Shown: positions 10,140 through 18,559 of the stretch, one piece after another
Layout of the letters: every line of letters starts with the position of its first letter
Position numbering within the stretch: the first letter of the stretch is position 1
Origin: an uncultured Pleurocapsa sp.
GTDB lineage: Bacteria > Cyanobacteriota > Cyanobacteriia > Cyanobacteriales > Xenococcaceae
DNA length: 42,459 nucleotides
Direction: 5' to 3'
NCBI GenBank assembly: GCA_938015355.1
Contig: CALLPS010000261.1
Location: forward strand, 1 to 42,459
Position numbers and translations under genes: made by a program
Notes under the pieces: model-generated
What the model saw: the letters and a program-made list of their open reading frames with translations, nothing else
The model's database searches: none
What the model was told of the DNA's origin: nothing

Positions 10140-10323
10140 ACGTGAGTTCGACAGATTTTCTTTGTGGTTGAATTTCCAAAGTTAGATAACGAAGTAATAG
10201 ACTTTTCCTCAAACTATGCGATGCAAGCCCTTTTCCCTTTTCCCTTATGCAAAACGGTATCCGTGATAGATTTCCCTTTTCCCTCGCCAAAACTAGTAGA
10301 TTTTATACTCATCGAACTCACGT
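10140..10323. repeat. MITE-like element bounded by 12-bp perfect inverted repeats
   Basis: The ends ACGTGAGTTCGA (10140-10151) and TCGAACTCACGT (10312-10323) are exact reverse complements, extending to 14 of 15 bases if TTG/TAA is included. The 184-bp interval has no convincing gene and carries a CT-rich segment (10211-10262) that recurs elsewhere in the window. The right end touches the stop codon of the haemagglutinin-type gene. A short non-autonomous element or a dispersed intergenic repeat is likely. Confidence 0.5.
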
Positions 10324-12899
10324 TAATTTGGCGTTTGAGATTTCCACTGATTACAATCAGGAGTCTGCAATCCAGGCTTGCGAGAAGTGACGACGACGGG
10401 TTTGTCCGTCAACACAACATTACCTTGGGCATCAGTTACCCACCCCTGAATCATAGCAAGTTGCTGTACTCTTTGATCCAAAGTTGTATCCTGATCTGAA
10501 GAAGTTGCATCCTCTCGGGTTACTTCTTCTAAGATCCGCCAGTCTGACCATGTTTGTTCTGGGAGAAAATCTTGTTCAGGATCAAAAGGAAGTCCACCAC
10601 GACCACTAGCAGTAAAGGAACTATTTTGGCTAATTTTACAAAAAGTATTGTTAAATAAATAATTAACATCGACAAAATCTGACGGCAAAGTAAATAGTTG
10701 ATTGGTAGCAGTCAAGACGGGAAATACTAGGTCTACAGTACCTGCTGTGCCAAATTCAGAACTTGCATCAATATCATTAGTCATATTTGGCGGTAGAGCA
10801 TTCCGCTCGACTGTACCGAAAATTCCTTCTGCGTTAATGGTGATGTTACCACCATCGCCAAATACGGCACTAGCCAAAATATCATTATTCTGTTGAGGAA
10901 AAGCAATCACAAAGTTGGCATCAATATCAACATTTCCCCCATTAGCAGCGTTCATAGCCCGAGCTGAAATTAAACTATTTTCTTGGAGAATGAGATTATC
11001 TTCAATGTTTAATTGAATATTGCCTCCTGACTGAAATTCAGTGGTAGCAATAATACTAGCCCCGTTGACTAATTCTACAGAGTTAGCATTAACAGTTAAA
11101 TTTCCTGGTGCGCTAGAGCCAGTACCTTGAACACTGAGGCTAGCGCGATCGCTAATAACTAGTTGATCCGTATTGAGAAATATATCTCCTCCATTCCCTC
11201 CATTATCTGTCTGTGTAGATATGAAGCTAGAAACTTTATCTACTTTATCTATTGGACGAAATCCACTGATTTCAATCTCAGAAGCATCTACATTAATATT
11301 CCCAGAATTCCCCGCAGACGCTGTTGTAGAGATTAGTAATCCTCCATCTTTAATTGTAAGTTTGCTCGTGCTAATATCTACGTTGCCAGCATTACCACTT
11401 CCAAAAGTATTGGCGGTAATCCGACTACTAACACTACCTGTTTTAGGAGAAGTCCCGAGAACTTCTATTGACCCGTTAACATCTAGCTCAATATTTCCAG
11501 CATTTCCAGTACCGAATGGACTAGTTGCAATTGCTGCACCATCTTGTAGGATTATATCTTGAGCAGTAATGCTAATATTTCCTCCATCACTACTACTAGT
11601 TGATAAAACTAATATCTCACTAGACTGATTAATTTCAATTGCTGTATTAATGTCGAATAAGGAACCAATTAAATCTATTGCATTTTCTCCTAACCGCAAT
11701 AGTGGTCTTGAACCTTTGAAATTAATCGAGTTAAAGACGTTCACGGATAAGTCTCCACTCTTTCCCTGGCTTGTTGGAAATGTTTGTAGTTCAATTGCTC
11801 CTCCATCAATTAGTTTTAAATCTTGAGCAACAATTTCAACATTTCCTCCCTTTCCAGTACCAAATGTGTTGCTAGAAATCTGACTGGCAAATGGTAAAAA
11901 GATTTCAAATTGTGCTGCTAGAAATAAATCGATTTTTTCACTTGTGGTATCGCTGCCATTTATTTCTAATAAATCAGATGCCTGAACTTTGATTTTTCCT
12001 CCATCCAGATTACCCAAAGTATTTGATGTGATGGCAGAACCATTAAGAATCTGAATATTTCTGCCCCAGACATTAATATCACCTCCTCCTTCTCCACTGG
12101 TATCAATGGAAGCTAAGTTATCTAATTTAATATCTCGAAACTGACTGACATTTTCATAGTTAACTTTCCATTCTTTAGCAATAGGCTCAAGAGTAACAAA
12201 ACTATTTTCGGCAACACTTCCTAATTCAATATTTCCTGTCGGGGCGGTAACTGCACCACCATCAAAAGTGATTCCATTCCCTATTAATGCCAAGGTGTTG
12301 CCTGGTTCAGTTTCTAATCCTAATTTTATTTGGTCTTGACCAGTCGGATCTTGAGGATTGGGAACTGCAAAATTAGCTCTATTGATAATTTCCCCTGGAT
12401 TGCTACCAAACTGTAATCCTAAAGGCACACTGACAGTTAACAGCGGTTCTGAGTTATCTAGATTAGTACTAAATTCTGTATCATCTTCAAACAATAAACT
12501 CTCGGCAGTAGTTCCAATAAAGGAACCACCGATATCTAAGCTGGCATTTTCTCCAAAGATGATTCCGTTAGGATTAAGTAAAAATAGATTAGCTGTCCCA
12601 TTGCTTTGAATCAAGCCATTGATCTCAGAAATAGATGAACCAGTAACACGGGTAATAATATTCTGAATCGTTATCGCATTATCGAAAGATACCGATCCGT
12701 TATTTGGTATGGAAAATTCTTGGAAACTATGAAATAAATTATCTCCTCGTTGTTCTCCTGCATTGACTGTAAAGTCGCGGTTGTTTTCGGTATTGACTTC
12801 TGTAGAGAGTGTGCCATCTTCAACTATTTGAGCCTTAACTAGCTTAGGGATAAGAATTAAGGAACAAGGAACAACGAATAATAATAGTTTGAGAATCAT
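10323..12899 (-). CDS. Two-partner-secretion exoprotein, filamentous haemagglutinin N-terminal type
   Basis: The 858-aa protein begins with a Sec signal peptide (MILKLLLFVVPCSLILIPKL, cleavage near VKAQ). A haemagglutination-activity (TPS) domain follows, over about residues 25-150, with LFLLNPNGIIFGENA, the NPNG hallmark. The rest is a repetitive right-handed beta-helix, with repeated phrases such as GNAGNIELDVNGSIEV and GGNIQLNIEDNLIL. A short C-terminal region has two Cys (NTFCK, TPDCNQW). Family knowledge: such TpsA proteins are exported across the outer membrane by a TpsB/ShlB-type transporter and act at the cell surface in adhesion or as secreted effectors. No TpsB gene is in the window, so the transporter must be elsewhere. 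858 aa is short for an adhesin but common in cyanobacteria. Confidence 0.9.
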   Translation of the reverse strand: MILKLLLFVVPCSLILIPKLVKAQIVEDGTLSTEVNTENNRDFTVNAGEQRGDNLFHSFQEFSIPNNGSVSFDNAITIQNIITRVTGSSISEINGLIQSNGTANLFLLNPNGIIFGENASLDIGGSFIGTTAESLLFEDDTEFSTNLDNSEPLLTVSVPLGLQFGSNPGEIINRANFAVPNPQDPTGQDQIKLGLETEPGNTLALIGNGITFDGGAVTAPTGNIELGSVAENSFVTLEPIAKEWKVNYENVSQFRDIKLDNLASIDTSGEGGGDINVWGRNIQILNGSAITSNTLGNLDGGKIKVQASDLLEINGSDTTSEKIDLFLAAQFEIFLPFASQISSNTFGTGKGGNVEIVAQDLKLIDGGAIELQTFPTSQGKSGDLSVNVFNSINFKGSRPLLRLGENAIDLIGSLFDINTAIEINQSSEILVLSTSSSDGGNISITAQDIILQDGAAIATSPFGTGNAGNIELDVNGSIEVLGTSPKTGSVSSRITANTFGSGNAGNVDISTSKLTIKDGGLLISTTASAGNSGNINVDASEIEISGFRPIDKVDKVSSFISTQTDNGGNGGDIFLNTDQLVISDRASLSVQGTGSSAPGNLTVNANSVELVNGASIIATTEFQSGGNIQLNIEDNLILQENSLISARAMNAANGGNVDIDANFVIAFPQQNNDILASAVFGDGGNITINAEGIFGTVERNALPPNMTNDIDASSEFGTAGTVDLVFPVLTATNQLFTLPSDFVDVNYLFNNTFCKISQNSSFTASGRGGLPFDPEQDFLPEQTWSDWRILEEVTREDATSSDQDTTLDQRVQQLAMIQGWVTDAQGNVVLTDKPVVVTSRKPGLQTPDCNQWKSQTPN

Positions 12900-13022: not shown

Positions 13023-13499
13023 ATGACTCTCTCCCAATTATTTAATATTTTAAATATCTATGCTATGGCTATTTGGGCTATAGCAATTTTTGCCCCTAAT
13101 TGGAGCATTACTCGAAAAATAATGAGTTCCTTGTTATTTTTAATCCCTTTGATTTGCTTATATATTTATTTTCTAGTTGTTACGTTTGATTTCGAGTCCA
13201 TCACTGTCTTATCTGATTTTAACTTAGAGAATATTGCTCTTCTTTTCTCGCAAGAAGGTACAGCAGGCGCAGGATGGATTCATTTTTTGACGATGGATTT
13301 ATTTGTGGGGAGATGGATTTATTGGCAAGGACAAGAGAAAAAAATTTGGACTGCTCATTCGTTACTCTTATGTCTTTTTTTGGGACCAGTTGGATTGCTT
13401 TCTCACATAATTACCGCTACTTTTTTTGGCAACAATAATAATGATGACTCAGATAACGACGATCCAGAAACCAAAAAAAATAGTAACGTTATTTCTTAA
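13023..13499 (+). CDS. ABA4-like (DUF4281) membrane protein
   Basis: The 158-aa protein has about four hydrophobic segments (residues ~7-25, 34-55, 85-100, 113-135). The central phrase is WIHFLTMDLFVGRWIYW, followed by LGPVGLLSHI. This pattern matches the ABA4-like/DUF4281 family as I know it. Plant ABA4 is needed for neoxanthin formation in plastids; the role of cyanobacterial members is not settled. A polar Asn/Asp-rich tail (NNNNDDSDNDD) ends the protein. A carotenoid-desaturase-like and a carotenoid-oxygenase-like gene lie within 3 kb, which makes a xanthophyll-related role plausible (inference). Confidence 0.75.
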   Translation: MTLSQLFNILNIYAMAIWAIAIFAPNWSITRKIMSSLLFLIPLICLYIYFLVVTFDFESITVLSDFNLENIALLFSQEGTAGAGWIHFLTMDLFVGRWIYWQGQEKKIWTAHSLLLCLFLGPVGLLSHIITATFFGNNNNDDSDNDDPETKKNSNVIS

Positions 13500-13592: not shown

Positions 13593-14015
13593 TTACATCA
13601 GACGTTTTATTGTTACATCATAAAGACTTTCAATCCAAACTCTAGCTCCACACATCGGATTATCTGGACGATAGACAATACGGCAACCTCCTGGTATTTC
13701 AACCTCATGTCCGTACTGATTAGTATCTCCTCGCTTGACTGTAATTACTGGCTGTCGCTGTTGATGTTTGTGATTATGTTTAATTTTCTGCGTATTAACA
13801 TGAACAATAGTCTTCGCCGGCTTTCGGGGATTTTGCCAACGAGGAGCAGGACCTCTCGTTCCTTTTAAGATAATAGGTCTGCCTTTAAACAGGGGGATAA
13901 GCCACATTTTTCCTGTTTTGTAAGCCCCTTCCACTCTCTTCGTAATTAAGAGGACTCTAAGTCTGGCAGTAGAGATTTTGAGAATTTTAGCTGCTGCTGT
14001 AGTACCTACTATCAT
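13593..14015 (-). CDS. Small helix-turn-helix (excisionase/MerR-like) DNA-binding protein
   Basis: The N-terminal ~45 residues (TTAAAKILKISTARLRVLLI ... YKTGKMWLIP) fit a single-helix-turn-helix domain of the excisionase/MerR HTH_17 type. A basic linker with RGPAPRWQNPRKPAK and a His/Gln-rich stretch follow. A C-terminal segment (IPGGCRIVYRPDNPMCGARV) contains two Cys. No effector domain is recognised. It lies between the ABA4-like gene and the FAD oxidoreductase and is co-directional with the latter, so it could regulate this group, but that is context only. The start ATG (MIVGTTAAAK) is well placed for the HTH. Confidence 0.7.
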   Translation of the reverse strand: MIVGTTAAAKILKISTARLRVLLITKRVEGAYKTGKMWLIPLFKGRPIILKGTRGPAPRWQNPRKPAKTIVHVNTQKIKHNHKHQQRQPVITVKRGDTNQYGHEVEIPGGCRIVYRPDNPMCGARVWIESLYDVTIKRLM

Positions 14016-14123: not shown

Positions 14124-15929
14124 TCAAATTACTGGTACATAGGGACCAACTACATTATCTTGAGCCGCAATTATCCCCACCGCAATACCAGCAGCAGCAG
14201 CAGCGTGACCCATTAAGTTACCCCCTGGATATACTTGTCCAGGGCTATTTTCAAATCCATCTTTACCCTGTAATGCCACCCAATCTCCCGCTACAACTAA
14301 GTTGGATATATATGGTTCGGCAAAAAATGGTGCAGGGCGATCGCCTTGCCCGACTTGAAACCCAGTAAAGTTATAGTATCTCCCAATTTGCAACCCTCCA
14401 TTCGGCTCAGGAGTAGCATCAGCTAGCTGAGATAGACCATCAATATCCCGCAATTCTTCTTTGATCGCATCCCATAATTCTTGATCAGAAAGTTCCAAGA
14501 TTAACAACCACAGCTGATCATCAGAGCAATTTTCAACTCTCTCTTTTAAACTGCCATACTTTCTCGCTAAAGTCGGACCTAAATCGTAAGCATGAACTTC
14601 GATCACCCATCTGTCTTCCCCCGCAGGAGCAGCTTTGACCCAAGCGGTATCACTCTTTTCAGTTTTGTGGGCTTGAAAAACTAAGTCTACTGGTTGATTT
14701 TCTGGAGTTTCGATGACATCAGGTCGCTCAGGATTTTCAGGTTTGCCGAGTAAATAGGCGCGGGCGACTACATAAGGCGGTGCGGTTTTTAATTTATTTA
14801 CTACCGACCGTACTTGGTCGAGGTTAGCTTGAGACTGAGGGTTTTCTGTTTTGGTGGCAGCGAAAATCTCTTTGGTGCCTCTAATATCCGTTGCCATTAC
14901 TAGATAATCTAAATCGATACTTTCTCCATTGCTAAAATCTAAACCTGTCACCTGATTATTTTCTAGGTTTATATTATTGACTCGATGTCCCAAATGAATC
15001 TTGACTCCTAAGCTTTCTAAATGGTTGCGAAAGGGCAACATAATTGAGTTGTAGTGGTTGTCTGTCGGAACAACCCGCAACATGGCATCAGGCTTACGAA
15101 TGAAAAAAGTCCACATCAAGTGCAATGCCTGGGCTGCACTAATATCTTCAGTACGATTAAGACTTACTGTAAGTACAGTTGTGATAAAGGTATCAAAAAA
15201 AGGTTTGGCAATTTTGCCTTGGGAATATTCAACCATAGTTAAATGGTCAAGTTTTTTTATTACCTTCTCATGGTTGTAGAAGAATAAAGATAACATTCCA
15301 GGGGCACTCTTCATAGCATCCAAAATGTTTACATTGGGCGATCGCCAGACAATACCCAGCATATTTAATAAATGGGCATTGGGGCTAGCTGTGAGAATTT
15401 CTTGTTCATAATTTTCAAACTCTAACAAGACTTCATCCACTGGTTCAAAGTGACGATCTGCCCCAACTTCAGAGATTTTCTGCATCAAATAATCATAAAC
15501 ATTATTAAAAAAGTGATGCAAACCATGTTCCCAAAACCCAGAAGGAGAAGTATCACTTACTTTTGCCCCTAATCTCCCCCCCAAAAAATCTGTAGCTTCA
15601 TAGATATCAACTTGATAGCCCAGCTTAACTAATTCTAAAGCCGCAATTAATCCACTTAGTCCCGCACCGATTACCGCAACTTTCCTAGTTACTCCTGGAG
15701 GTAATTCTGGCAATCCTTTGGTAACTGGAGGCTCCACCATTCTTCCGAGATCATTTAATAGAAAAGGAGGACATCCTCGCAGGGCTTTATTTAACTTCAG
15801 TAATAACTTTTCCACTGATGGTGGAATCCCTTTTTCTCTGGCAAAAAGAGTAACGTTCTTTTGACCGCCCCAAGCTGTTGTGTTGCCGAAATCAGAGCCG
15901 AAATCAGAATTATGCGATCGCTGTTTCAT
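14124..15929 (-). CDS. FAD-dependent carotenoid desaturase/isomerase-like oxidoreductase
   Basis: The 601-aa protein has a dinucleotide-binding fold at about residues 84-125 (KVAVIGAGLSGLIAALELVK ... YEATDFLGGRLGAK). This is followed by WEHGLHHFFNNVYDYL, typical of the zeta-carotene desaturase/phytoene desaturase-like amine oxidase family (COG3349 type). The C-terminal FAD-contact region is YPGGNLMGHAAAAAG. An N-terminal ~80-residue extension precedes the FAD domain. The likely role is oxidation or isomerisation of an isoprenoid or carotenoid in the membrane; the substrate cannot be assigned. The gene is divergent from the carotenoid-oxygenase-like gene at 16166, with a shared 236-bp promoter region containing a perfect dyad. 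Confidence 0.85.
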   Translation of the reverse strand: MKQRSHNSDFGSDFGNTTAWGGQKNVTLFAREKGIPPSVEKLLLKLNKALRGCPPFLLNDLGRMVEPPVTKGLPELPPGVTRKVAVIGAGLSGLIAALELVKLGYQVDIYEATDFLGGRLGAKVSDTSPSGFWEHGLHHFFNNVYDYLMQKISEVGADRHFEPVDEVLLEFENYEQEILTASPNAHLLNMLGIVWRSPNVNILDAMKSAPGMLSLFFYNHEKVIKKLDHLTMVEYSQGKIAKPFFDTFITTVLTVSLNRTEDISAAQALHLMWTFFIRKPDAMLRVVPTDNHYNSIMLPFRNHLESLGVKIHLGHRVNNINLENNQVTGLDFSNGESIDLDYLVMATDIRGTKEIFAATKTENPQSQANLDQVRSVVNKLKTAPPYVVARAYLLGKPENPERPDVIETPENQPVDLVFQAHKTEKSDTAWVKAAPAGEDRWVIEVHAYDLGPTLARKYGSLKERVENCSDDQLWLLILELSDQELWDAIKEELRDIDGLSQLADATPEPNGGLQIGRYYNFTGFQVGQGDRPAPFFAEPYISNLVVAGDWVALQGKDGFENSPGQVYPGGNLMGHAAAAAGIAVGIIAAQDNVVGPYVPVI

Positions 15930-16165: not shown

Positions 16166-18559
16166 ATGACAGAAGCACCATCAAGCACTATATCAAATAA
16201 TTGTGGTCAAAATTTACCATCAAGATTTCCGCAAACCGTTGTTGCCGTAAGTAGAGAGGAATTTATCGAGCCGATTGAACTGACGATCAAAGATGCAGCA
16301 GGAAATAAGGCTACTCTACCTGAGGATCTTCTAGGTCACTATTTTATGGTTAGTCCTGTAGGATCACCAAATTCTTCTCAGGTAGAAGGGGATGATCAGA
16401 CGGTTTGGGTCAGTAAAGACGGTTGGACTGCTTTATACAACGGCGATGGCATGGTTTATCGTCTAAGTTTTGCCCAAAAAAAAGCTAGTTTAAAAACTCG
16501 CTTAGTCAAAACGCCCTGTTATTTCGCCGATCAAGCCACCGCCGATCCGAGTAACAAACAATACAGCGGACTTAAATTCTATAACCTAGGCATTTCTCGG
16601 GGTTCATTCAACAAGTTGGGTATTCGTAACCAGTTGAATACAGCTTTTGTGCCCTTTCAACTGAGTGACGATGACCATGAACGTTTGCTGATTACCTGGG
16701 ATGTTGGTCGCCCCTACGAAATTGATCCAGAGACTTTAGAAACTCTCACTCCAGTGGGGATGAACGAAAGTTGGTCAGAATTGTTACCAGGTCAACAACC
16801 AATTCCCTTTAAAAACTTGATGGCTTCAGCACATCCTGTATTTGACCGTGATGCCGAAAAATTTTATACCTTAAATGCGGGTCGGTCATTGTGGACGATG
16901 TTAGCTTTGCCGCGATCGATCGACGTTAGGTTAGAGCGCAATTTTGAGGCTTTAAAATCAATTTGGGATCAGTTTTGGCGAGAGCGCAACTTCAATTTTG
17001 CTCAAAGTTTTCAAAATATTTTAGTTCTACTTTATTCCGTTATTTTATATCCCCTCAAGCTGGTAATCTCGATTACAGGAATATTTGTAAAAATTCTGGA
17101 ATTGTTTACTGGTGGCTATGACTTTGTTCATTTGCTGCAATGGGATGGCAAACAAGTCGGCATTACCGAAAAATGGAATATTGTTTTACCAGGAAATAGA
17201 CCCTTAAGCATTAATCAGACTGTCCATCAAATGGGAATTACCGAAGACTATATCGTCTTTGCTGAGACATCATTTAAGTTTTCCCTAGAGAATACCCTCC
17301 CTTATCAGAAAAACCCTTTACTAAGTTCTTTTATCGTTTTTATTACCGATTTTCTCAACTATCCTCAATATCCCAGTACTAACCTGTACATAATTAACAA
17401 AGCAGATTTAAAGTCAGAAACTCCTGGTTTCTGGACAAAATTGACCAACTTTTTCTCTCGTAGCCAATTTAAAAATTTACCAAAAGTTGTTGCCAAAAAA
17501 GTAGAAGTCAGCCCTGAATTTTCTCATTATGTGCTCAACTATGATAATAGTAACGAGCAAATTGTGGTGAATGCCGCCCATTTAGCAGCCTCAGACATTG
17601 CCGAATATATCCGTATTCATGATCGTTCAGCTTATGATGATCGTGACCCTGATGATCTTGAAGACATCTATGATGATCCCGAATTAACCTATCGCATTCA
17701 ACAGCTAGCAGGGAATATAGTCAGCCCTACAGATATTAGTCGTTTAGGACGTTTGGTAATTGATGTCAAAACAGGTGACATTGTCGATCATAAATTAGTT
17801 CCTAATGAATCAGACCGAGACAAGATTAATCAGCAACTTGAAGCTCACCATGCAGACCCAGAAGTTAATCAGATAGATCCTAAGTATCTTCTTACCTGGT
17901 CTACAGCGTTTTATGTTTACTCAGACCAACGACCTACGAAACAAGTTACTGATATTTTCTGGAATAATTGGGGAGCTTGGCCCGACACTCTAACTAACAG
18001 AGCCCTTGAAGCATATCAGGACTATCCACACCGCTTAATAGATCAGAAAAAACTTGTTGACTTAATTTACGAGGGAGTACCTTCAAGTTTATGCCATCTG
18101 CAAATCAAAACAGATTCTATTAAGCTCAACGAAGATAATTATTACCAGTTTAATAATCGTAATTTAGGAACTTCTGCTCAATTCATCCCTCGCCCTAATG
18201 TGGAGGATCAAACTGATGGCTATATTGTCTGTGTTGTCTTAACTTCCGATGAATTCTTATCTCAATCGACAGCAGAAGATAATGATCCAGAGTGGTCACA
18301 AAATAGTGAGATCTGGATTTTTGATGCTGGAAAACTGAAAGATGGGCCTCTGTATAAAATGAGTCATCCTAAACTAAATATCGGCTTTTCCTTCCATACA
18401 ACTTGGATGCCAGAAGTAAAATCTCCTAGCAGACGTTTGGATTATGACGTGAAGAAAGATTATGAACCTTTGGTTGAACAAATAATTTCTAACCAACCTG
18501 AATTAGGGGGCAGTATCCGCCAGTTGTTTGACGAAGAGATTTACCCTAATTTTTCCTAA
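16166..18559 (+). CDS. Carotenoid-oxygenase (RPE65/CCD) family protein with hydrophobic insertion
   Basis: The 797-aa protein carries YNGDGMVYRLSF (about 91-102) and four His regions that fit the four iron ligands of carotenoid cleavage dioxygenases: His223 (SAHPVFD), His354 (TVHQMGITEDY), His454 (FSHYVLNYDN) and His744 (FHTTWMP). Family enzymes use a seven-bladed propeller with four-His Fe(II) to cleave carotenoid double bonds with O2, or to isomerise them. It is much longer than typical cyanobacterial members (~480-500 aa). One reason is a strongly hydrophobic stretch at about 285-315 (LVLLYSVILYPLKLVISITG), which could anchor it in a membrane. It is divergent from a desaturase-like gene. 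The substrate and product are unknown. The start ATG at 16166 is reasonable. Confidence 0.8.
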   Translation: MTEAPSSTISNNCGQNLPSRFPQTVVAVSREEFIEPIELTIKDAAGNKATLPEDLLGHYFMVSPVGSPNSSQVEGDDQTVWVSKDGWTALYNGDGMVYRLSFAQKKASLKTRLVKTPCYFADQATADPSNKQYSGLKFYNLGISRGSFNKLGIRNQLNTAFVPFQLSDDDHERLLITWDVGRPYEIDPETLETLTPVGMNESWSELLPGQQPIPFKNLMASAHPVFDRDAEKFYTLNAGRSLWTMLALPRSIDVRLERNFEALKSIWDQFWRERNFNFAQSFQNILVLLYSVILYPLKLVISITGIFVKILELFTGGYDFVHLLQWDGKQVGITEKWNIVLPGNRPLSINQTVHQMGITEDYIVFAETSFKFSLENTLPYQKNPLLSSFIVFITDFLNYPQYPSTNLYIINKADLKSETPGFWTKLTNFFSRSQFKNLPKVVAKKVEVSPEFSHYVLNYDNSNEQIVVNAAHLAASDIAEYIRIHDRSAYDDRDPDDLEDIYDDPELTYRIQQLAGNIVSPTDISRLGRLVIDVKTGDIVDHKLVPNESDRDKINQQLEAHHADPEVNQIDPKYLLTWSTAFYVYSDQRPTKQVTDIFWNNWGAWPDTLTNRALEAYQDYPHRLIDQKKLVDLIYEGVPSSLCHLQIKTDSIKLNEDNYYQFNNRNLGTSAQFIPRPNVEDQTDGYIVCVVLTSDEFLSQSTAEDNDPEWSQNSEIWIFDAGKLKDGPLYKMSHPKLNIGFSFHTTWMPEVKSPSRRLDYDVKKDYEPLVEQIISNQPELGGSIRQLFDEEIYPNFS

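Follow-up and report, generated by a model that had tools for sequence, protein, structure and literature searches.

A long CCD/RPE65-superfamily protein family with an altered iron second shell and recurrent linkage to genes for giant kinases

A 797-residue protein encoded by a Pleurocapsales-type cyanobacterium is almost certainly homologous to the carotenoid cleavage dioxygenases (CCDs), and its family represents a divergent, little-studied bacterial branch of the CCD/RPE65 superfamily. The family retains the four histidines of the iron site, carries other residues in place of second-shell Glu, and is repeatedly encoded beside genes for giant signalling proteins. The explanation that we favor overall, at somewhat less than even confidence, is that of a four-His CCD-family enzyme, docked on the membrane through a helical hairpin in the clade of this organism, whose products or ligand state would feed signalling. 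The window, i.e., the whole stretch of DNA analyzed, is a contig of 42,459 bases from a draft genome of 3.995 Mb in 464 contigs, and the gene of interest is located as follows.

16166..18559, + strand: long CCD/RPE65-superfamily protein, 797 aa (ATG at 16166, stop at 18559; Pfam RPE65, hhalign, AlphaFold, and Foldseek)

The protein matched Pfam RPE65 (PF03055) in two stretches with 126 bits (E value of 2e-36) against a cut-off of 27. The same genome encodes two canonical CCDs, of 494 and 481 aa, which the protein exceeds by about 300 residues, in agreement with the original prediction; by hhalign and AlphaFold, this extra length is distributed over several inserts and is not confined to the hydrophobic insert described below. 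A gene for a phage-integrase-family protein is present near the contig end (39584-40753, + strand).

When 84,980 species genomes were scanned, 132 stretches encoding relatives were recovered; the 80 that were retained come from cyanobacteria and Bacteroidota. The distribution is patchy, with clear members in 13 of 292 sampled cyanobacterial genomes. At least nine loci hold tandem CCD-like pairs, and eight loci (L070, L072, L078, L080, L083, L085, L100, and L102) encode fused double proteins of 1396-1463 aa, with all four His kept in each unit; in the tree, upstream and downstream tandem copies did not form two clean clades. Placement of the long family relative to canonical CCDs was not possible in this tree, where the stem had a length of 2.8 and low support. 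A few CCD-like copies are apparently broken or fragmented (L046 from genome G118, L086, and L105).

The predicted iron site and its second shell

The original prediction held that four His positions fit the iron site. Profile-profile alignment by hhalign against 14 canonical cyanobacterial CCDs (probability of 99.7) bore this out, pairing H223, H354, H454, and H744 with the canonical ligands H181, H236, H304, and H485, and all four are invariant in the 91 family copies, both halves of the fused proteins included. While a search with the single sequence barely reaches solved CCDs, the family profile reaches them at an E value of 3e-14. The residues of the site, all on the + strand, are listed below.

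16640..16642, + strand: T159, equivalent of the Thr that occludes the sixth site (ACO T136, CAO1 T151); Thr in 86 of 91 family copies and 14 of 14 canonical CCDs
16700..16702, + strand: D179, in place of a second-shell Glu (ACO E150) by hhalign; Asp in 90 of 91 copies, Glu in 14 of 14 canonical CCDs
16832..16834, + strand: H223, predicted iron ligand 1 (hhalign, family conservation)
17225..17227, + strand: H354, predicted iron ligand 2 (hhalign, family conservation)
17525..17527, + strand: H454, predicted iron ligand 3 (hhalign, family conservation)
18173..18175, + strand: S670, in place of a second-shell Glu (ACO E426) by hhalign; Ser in 87 of 91 copies, Glu in 14 of 14 canonical CCDs
18395..18397, + strand: H744, predicted iron ligand 4 (hhalign, family conservation)

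In characterized CCDs, three of the His ligands are hydrogen bonded to second-shell carboxylates, and the Thr position (ACO T136, CAO1 T151) has a role in occluding the sixth site (PMC12051055). The second-shell Glu that the original prediction had proposed to confirm by alignment proved to be replaced: canonical E148 and E427, corresponding to ACO E150 and E426, align with D179 and S670 by hhalign, and ACO E370 aligns near T577, tentatively, as this region of the alignment is gappy. The second shell is thus reduced from three carboxylates to one Asp, D179. Our first reading had placed D179, D523, and Q672 at the second-shell Glu positions, and the profile alignments moved two of these assignments to T577 and S670. 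Q672 is nonetheless fixed in 90 of 91 copies and D523 in 88 of 91, and these residues may compensate for the replaced Glu. A divergent Microcystis subgroup of 610-616 aa (L049, L050, L052, and L053) shares the equivalents of D179, S670, and Q672. The LALWEA motif, reported in a 2012 survey from all 61 cyanobacterial CCDs studied (PMC3299332), is also missing from the long family, with LLITWDVGRPYEID in its place in the 797-aa protein.

The change in the second shell weakens any claim of canonical catalysis and leaves the superfamily homology unaffected, while the conservation of four His in 91 of 91 copies and of the occluding Thr in 86 of 91 argues against a dead fold. The protein very likely binds iron and probably performs oxygenase chemistry, which the reduced set of carboxylates could weaken or change. 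A "much longer RPE65" of Chlorogloeopsis fritschii, WP_016873878.1, was reported in 2020 to have two of the four His (PMC7029182). This protein is very probably the family member that we found in C. fritschii (L117, 715 aa), which, in contrast to that report, shows all four by profile alignment.

Predicted fold and the helical hairpin

With 75 family sequences as input, AlphaFold modeled the 797-aa protein as a CCD propeller with a pLDDT of 90.2 and a pTM of 0.91. The predicted model matched CCD structures, i.e., seven-bladed propellers, first: the best 50 Foldseek matches listed were all CCD-superfamily structures, with top scores for ACO (target TM of 0.71), lignostilbene dioxygenase (0.69), and RPE65 (up to 0.69), and with only 11-15% identity to solved CCDs. 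The long family shares the propeller, the four His, and the occluding Thr with canonical members such as Synechocystis ACO (PDB 2biw and 5kjb), RPE65, and lignostilbene dioxygenases (5v2d), but differs from them in its low identity, some 300 additional residues, the replaced second-shell Glu, its kinase, cyclase, or TPS (two-partner secretion) neighbors, and a two-helix hairpin between ligands 1 and 2.

16907..16981, + strand: insert helix 1, residues 248-272, charged and amphipathic (AlphaFold; moment of 0.56)
16997..17110, + strand: insert helix 2, residues 278-315, strongly hydrophobic (AlphaFold, hydropathy), the stretch named in the original prediction

This hairpin, predicted with medium confidence (pLDDT of 64-81), lies between H223 and H354, and its hydrophobic stretch is not predicted to form a propeller strand. 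The best 19-residue Kyte-Doolittle window reaches 2.30 at residue 285, and windows above 1.2 span residues 281-318, whereas no window outside the insert exceeds 0.99; a hydrophobic stretch between the first two ligand regions, and its predicted folding as a helical hairpin, are thus as originally envisaged. On the Eisenberg scale, the helix at 278-315 has a mean hydrophobicity of 0.55 and a moment of 0.38, and it contains one Pro, two Lys, and one Glu. We infer that a helix at the membrane surface, or one inserted only shallowly, fits these values at least as well as a plain transmembrane span; it could also pack on another protein instead of lipid.

Nearly every family copy carries an insert of 26-152 residues between ligands 1 and 2. 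Hydropathy windows above 2.0 occur in 9 of 75 copies: eight belong to the window and to six genomes related to it (L054-L059), and the ninth to L094. At the same place, the inserts of Bacteroidota are helical and hydrophilic (hydropathy of about -0.7 to 0.8), and a relative from Algoriphagus has the same predicted fold with shorter helices in this gap. By these models, the hairpin is a module of the family and its strong hydrophobicity a trait of the Pleurocapsales-type clade. Since the strong hydrophobicity is almost restricted to one clade, docking is a plausible clade-specific elaboration, and we rate membrane docking by the hairpin in the window's clade, as judged from the models, at an even chance. 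The original prediction had called such docking unusual; the hairpin and the idea stand as reasonable, but the idea is not wholly unusual, as paired antiparallel helices of plant VP14 and CCD4 have been proposed to enter the membrane or plastoglobule (PMC5133782, PMC8708828). The likeness to plant NCED/CCD4 proteins such as maize VP14 is in the use of such paired helices; in the long family, the insert lies between ligands 1 and 2, and outside one clade it is hardly ever strongly hydrophobic.

Linkage to kinase, cyclase, and TPS genes

In 38 of 81 loci, a gene for a Ser/Thr kinase-AAA_16-GAF protein, a group defined by sequence clustering with seven members domain-scanned, is located directly downstream of the CCD-like gene on the same strand; two Cyanobium loci, masked by spurious open reading frames in gene picking, apparently belong here as well. 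The encoded kinases are typically 1.7-2.1 thousand residues long and shorter at contig ends. Gaps between the two genes range from -67 to 451 bp, with 4-bp overlaps in three cyanobacterial loci and 0-9 bp in Algoriphagus-type loci, and in the Microcystis subgroup the CCD-like gene overlaps the gene for a 2050-aa kinase by 4 bp in four genomes. Giant cyanobacterial proteins of this sort are known by their domain types, and the linked partners combine Ser/Thr kinase, AAA, TPR, and GAF domains with varying outputs; among the scanned partners, SpoIIE, AAA_35, and adenylate/guanylate cyclase outputs were found beside the CCD-like gene, and no DNA-binding output was recognized. Seven loci have, instead of the kinase link, an adenylate cyclase-AAA protein upstream, and in Marivirga a SpoIIE protein is encoded directly downstream.

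The pairing was also evident at the level of genomes. Both strong AAA_16 kinase-type matches of the M. viridis genome adjoin a CCD-like gene, and the single strong match in Algoriphagus (G294) and in Chlorogloea (G296) is the CCD-linked one. Across 149 genomes of the Algoriphagus family, AAA_16 kinase-type matches, which may be other protein types when under about 1,500 aa, were present in 9 of 11 genomes with the CCD-like gene versus 45 of 138 without it (Fisher P = 0.002, calculated as if the genomes were independent, which is not the case), and in 8 of the 9 genomes in which they co-occur the two genes lie side by side. Adjacency in two phyla is firmer evidence than the co-occurrence P values. 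A literature search found no description of a recurrent CCD-like gene upstream of giant Ser/Thr kinase-AAA-GAF genes. Membership in a defense system was considered and set aside, as PADLOC gave no defense-system match for the CCD-like protein, and the matches of the kinases were mainly to generic kinase or cyclase domains. The linkage to signalling genes and the altered second shell had both been missed by the original prediction; the repeated pairing with signalling proteins is more informative than the hydrophobic hairpin.

No kinase gene adjoins the CCD-like gene of the window, and the two giant AAA_16 kinase-type genes of this genome are both on other contigs. The neighbors are the following.

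10323..12899, - strand: TPS exoprotein of the filamentous haemagglutinin type, 858 aa (Pfam TPS, 208 bits); kept as a neighbor within the clade and in several further cyanobacteria
13023..13499, + strand: ABA4-like membrane protein, 158 aa (Pfam ABA4-like, 142.5 bits; same place in L054 and L057)
14124..15929, - strand: amine-oxidase-type FAD protein, a relative of HpnE and zeta-carotene desaturase, transcribed divergently from the CCD-like gene

The order of TPS, ABA4-like, FAD, and CCD-like genes is common to the window and Waterburya (L054), where the FAD protein beside the CCD-like gene is 84% identical. Plant ABA4 is required for neoxanthin. A conserved cluster of FAD, ABA4-like, and CCD-like genes was rejected, as the pair recurs only in Waterburya, with ABA4 alone in L057, and the only one of 146 sampled cyanobacterial genomes to encode the FAD protein is that of the window itself. 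A 140-aa open reading frame (13593-14015, - strand) separates the ABA4-like gene from the FAD gene; by eye, its start resembles that of a DNA-binding helix-turn-helix protein. A TPS neighbor is shared by the window and L054-L058, in L059, L060, L094, and L121 a TPS gene immediately follows the CCD-like gene, and these loci fall mostly into one well-supported clade.

Proposed function and alternatives

According to the explanation that we favor, the protein would be a four-His, non-heme-iron propeller enzyme of the CCD/RPE65 superfamily that, in the window's clade, is most likely laid on the membrane by the hydrophobic second helix of the hairpin. This placement would allow a lipophilic alkene, most probably of the carotenoid or apocarotenoid kind, to enter the tunnel for cleavage or modification at the iron. 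Given the operons with kinase/AAA/TPR/GAF genes or the adjacent adenylate cyclase genes, the products or the ligand-bound state would, across the family, most likely feed signalling. The window's clade has, in place of the kinase, a linked gene for a secreted TPS exoprotein. We put forward a signalling role for the family tentatively; as the window's copy has no adjacent kinase, this reading is carried over to it from relatives by analogy and is more doubtful there. In its fullest form, the proposal is that of a bacterial two-gene signalling system spanning cyanobacteria and Bacteroidota: the CCD-like iron oxygenase would produce or perceive a lipophilic signal of the apocarotenoid type on behalf of a giant kinase/AAA/GAF protein whose output domains are interchangeable. 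In this form it is possible but rather speculative.

The same linkage could be explained by a ligand or gas sensor with slow or no turnover, in which the iron and the lipophilic pocket are kept and the hairpin contacts the partner kinase directly. The family-wide replacement of second-shell Glu by D179 and S670, the tight kinase operons with their 4-bp overlaps, the tandem and fused double copies, which suggest complexes, and the persistence of the helical module even where it is hydrophilic are all consistent with this; however, the invariant four His and the occluding Thr are what selection for oxygen chemistry would be expected to leave, and we consider a sensor of this kind unlikely. Conversely, the canonical four His and fold, together with ABA4-like and FAD desaturase-like neighbors that hint at carotenoid metabolism in the window, would suit an ordinary catabolic CCD with lineage-specific loops, where the kinase only regulates carotenoid turnover under stress. 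The 11-15% identity to solved CCDs, the altered second shell, the long inserts, and the patchy distribution among cyanobacteria fit this poorly, as does the lack of a recognized DNA-binding output in the scanned kinase partners, making it an improbable account.

For the window's clade alone, the function may have shifted to the cell envelope, with the CCD-like protein modifying a membrane lipid or pigment in connection with the TPS exoprotein. The TPS neighbors described above, the concentration of most TPS-linked copies in one well-supported clade, and the raised hydrophobicity in the same clade point in this direction, but no signal peptide was noticed, the window genome has 8 TPS matches, and the neighbor could be a passive inheritance, so that we regard such a shift as very unlikely.

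The second shell is altered throughout the family and fixed there, which offers a natural experiment on the tuning of CCD iron. If the gene linkage means signalling, the family would represent a dedicated bacterial module for an apocarotenoid-type (or other lipid) signal, a prokaryotic counterpart to the biology of retinoids, abscisic acid, and strigolactones, and a convenient system for its study.
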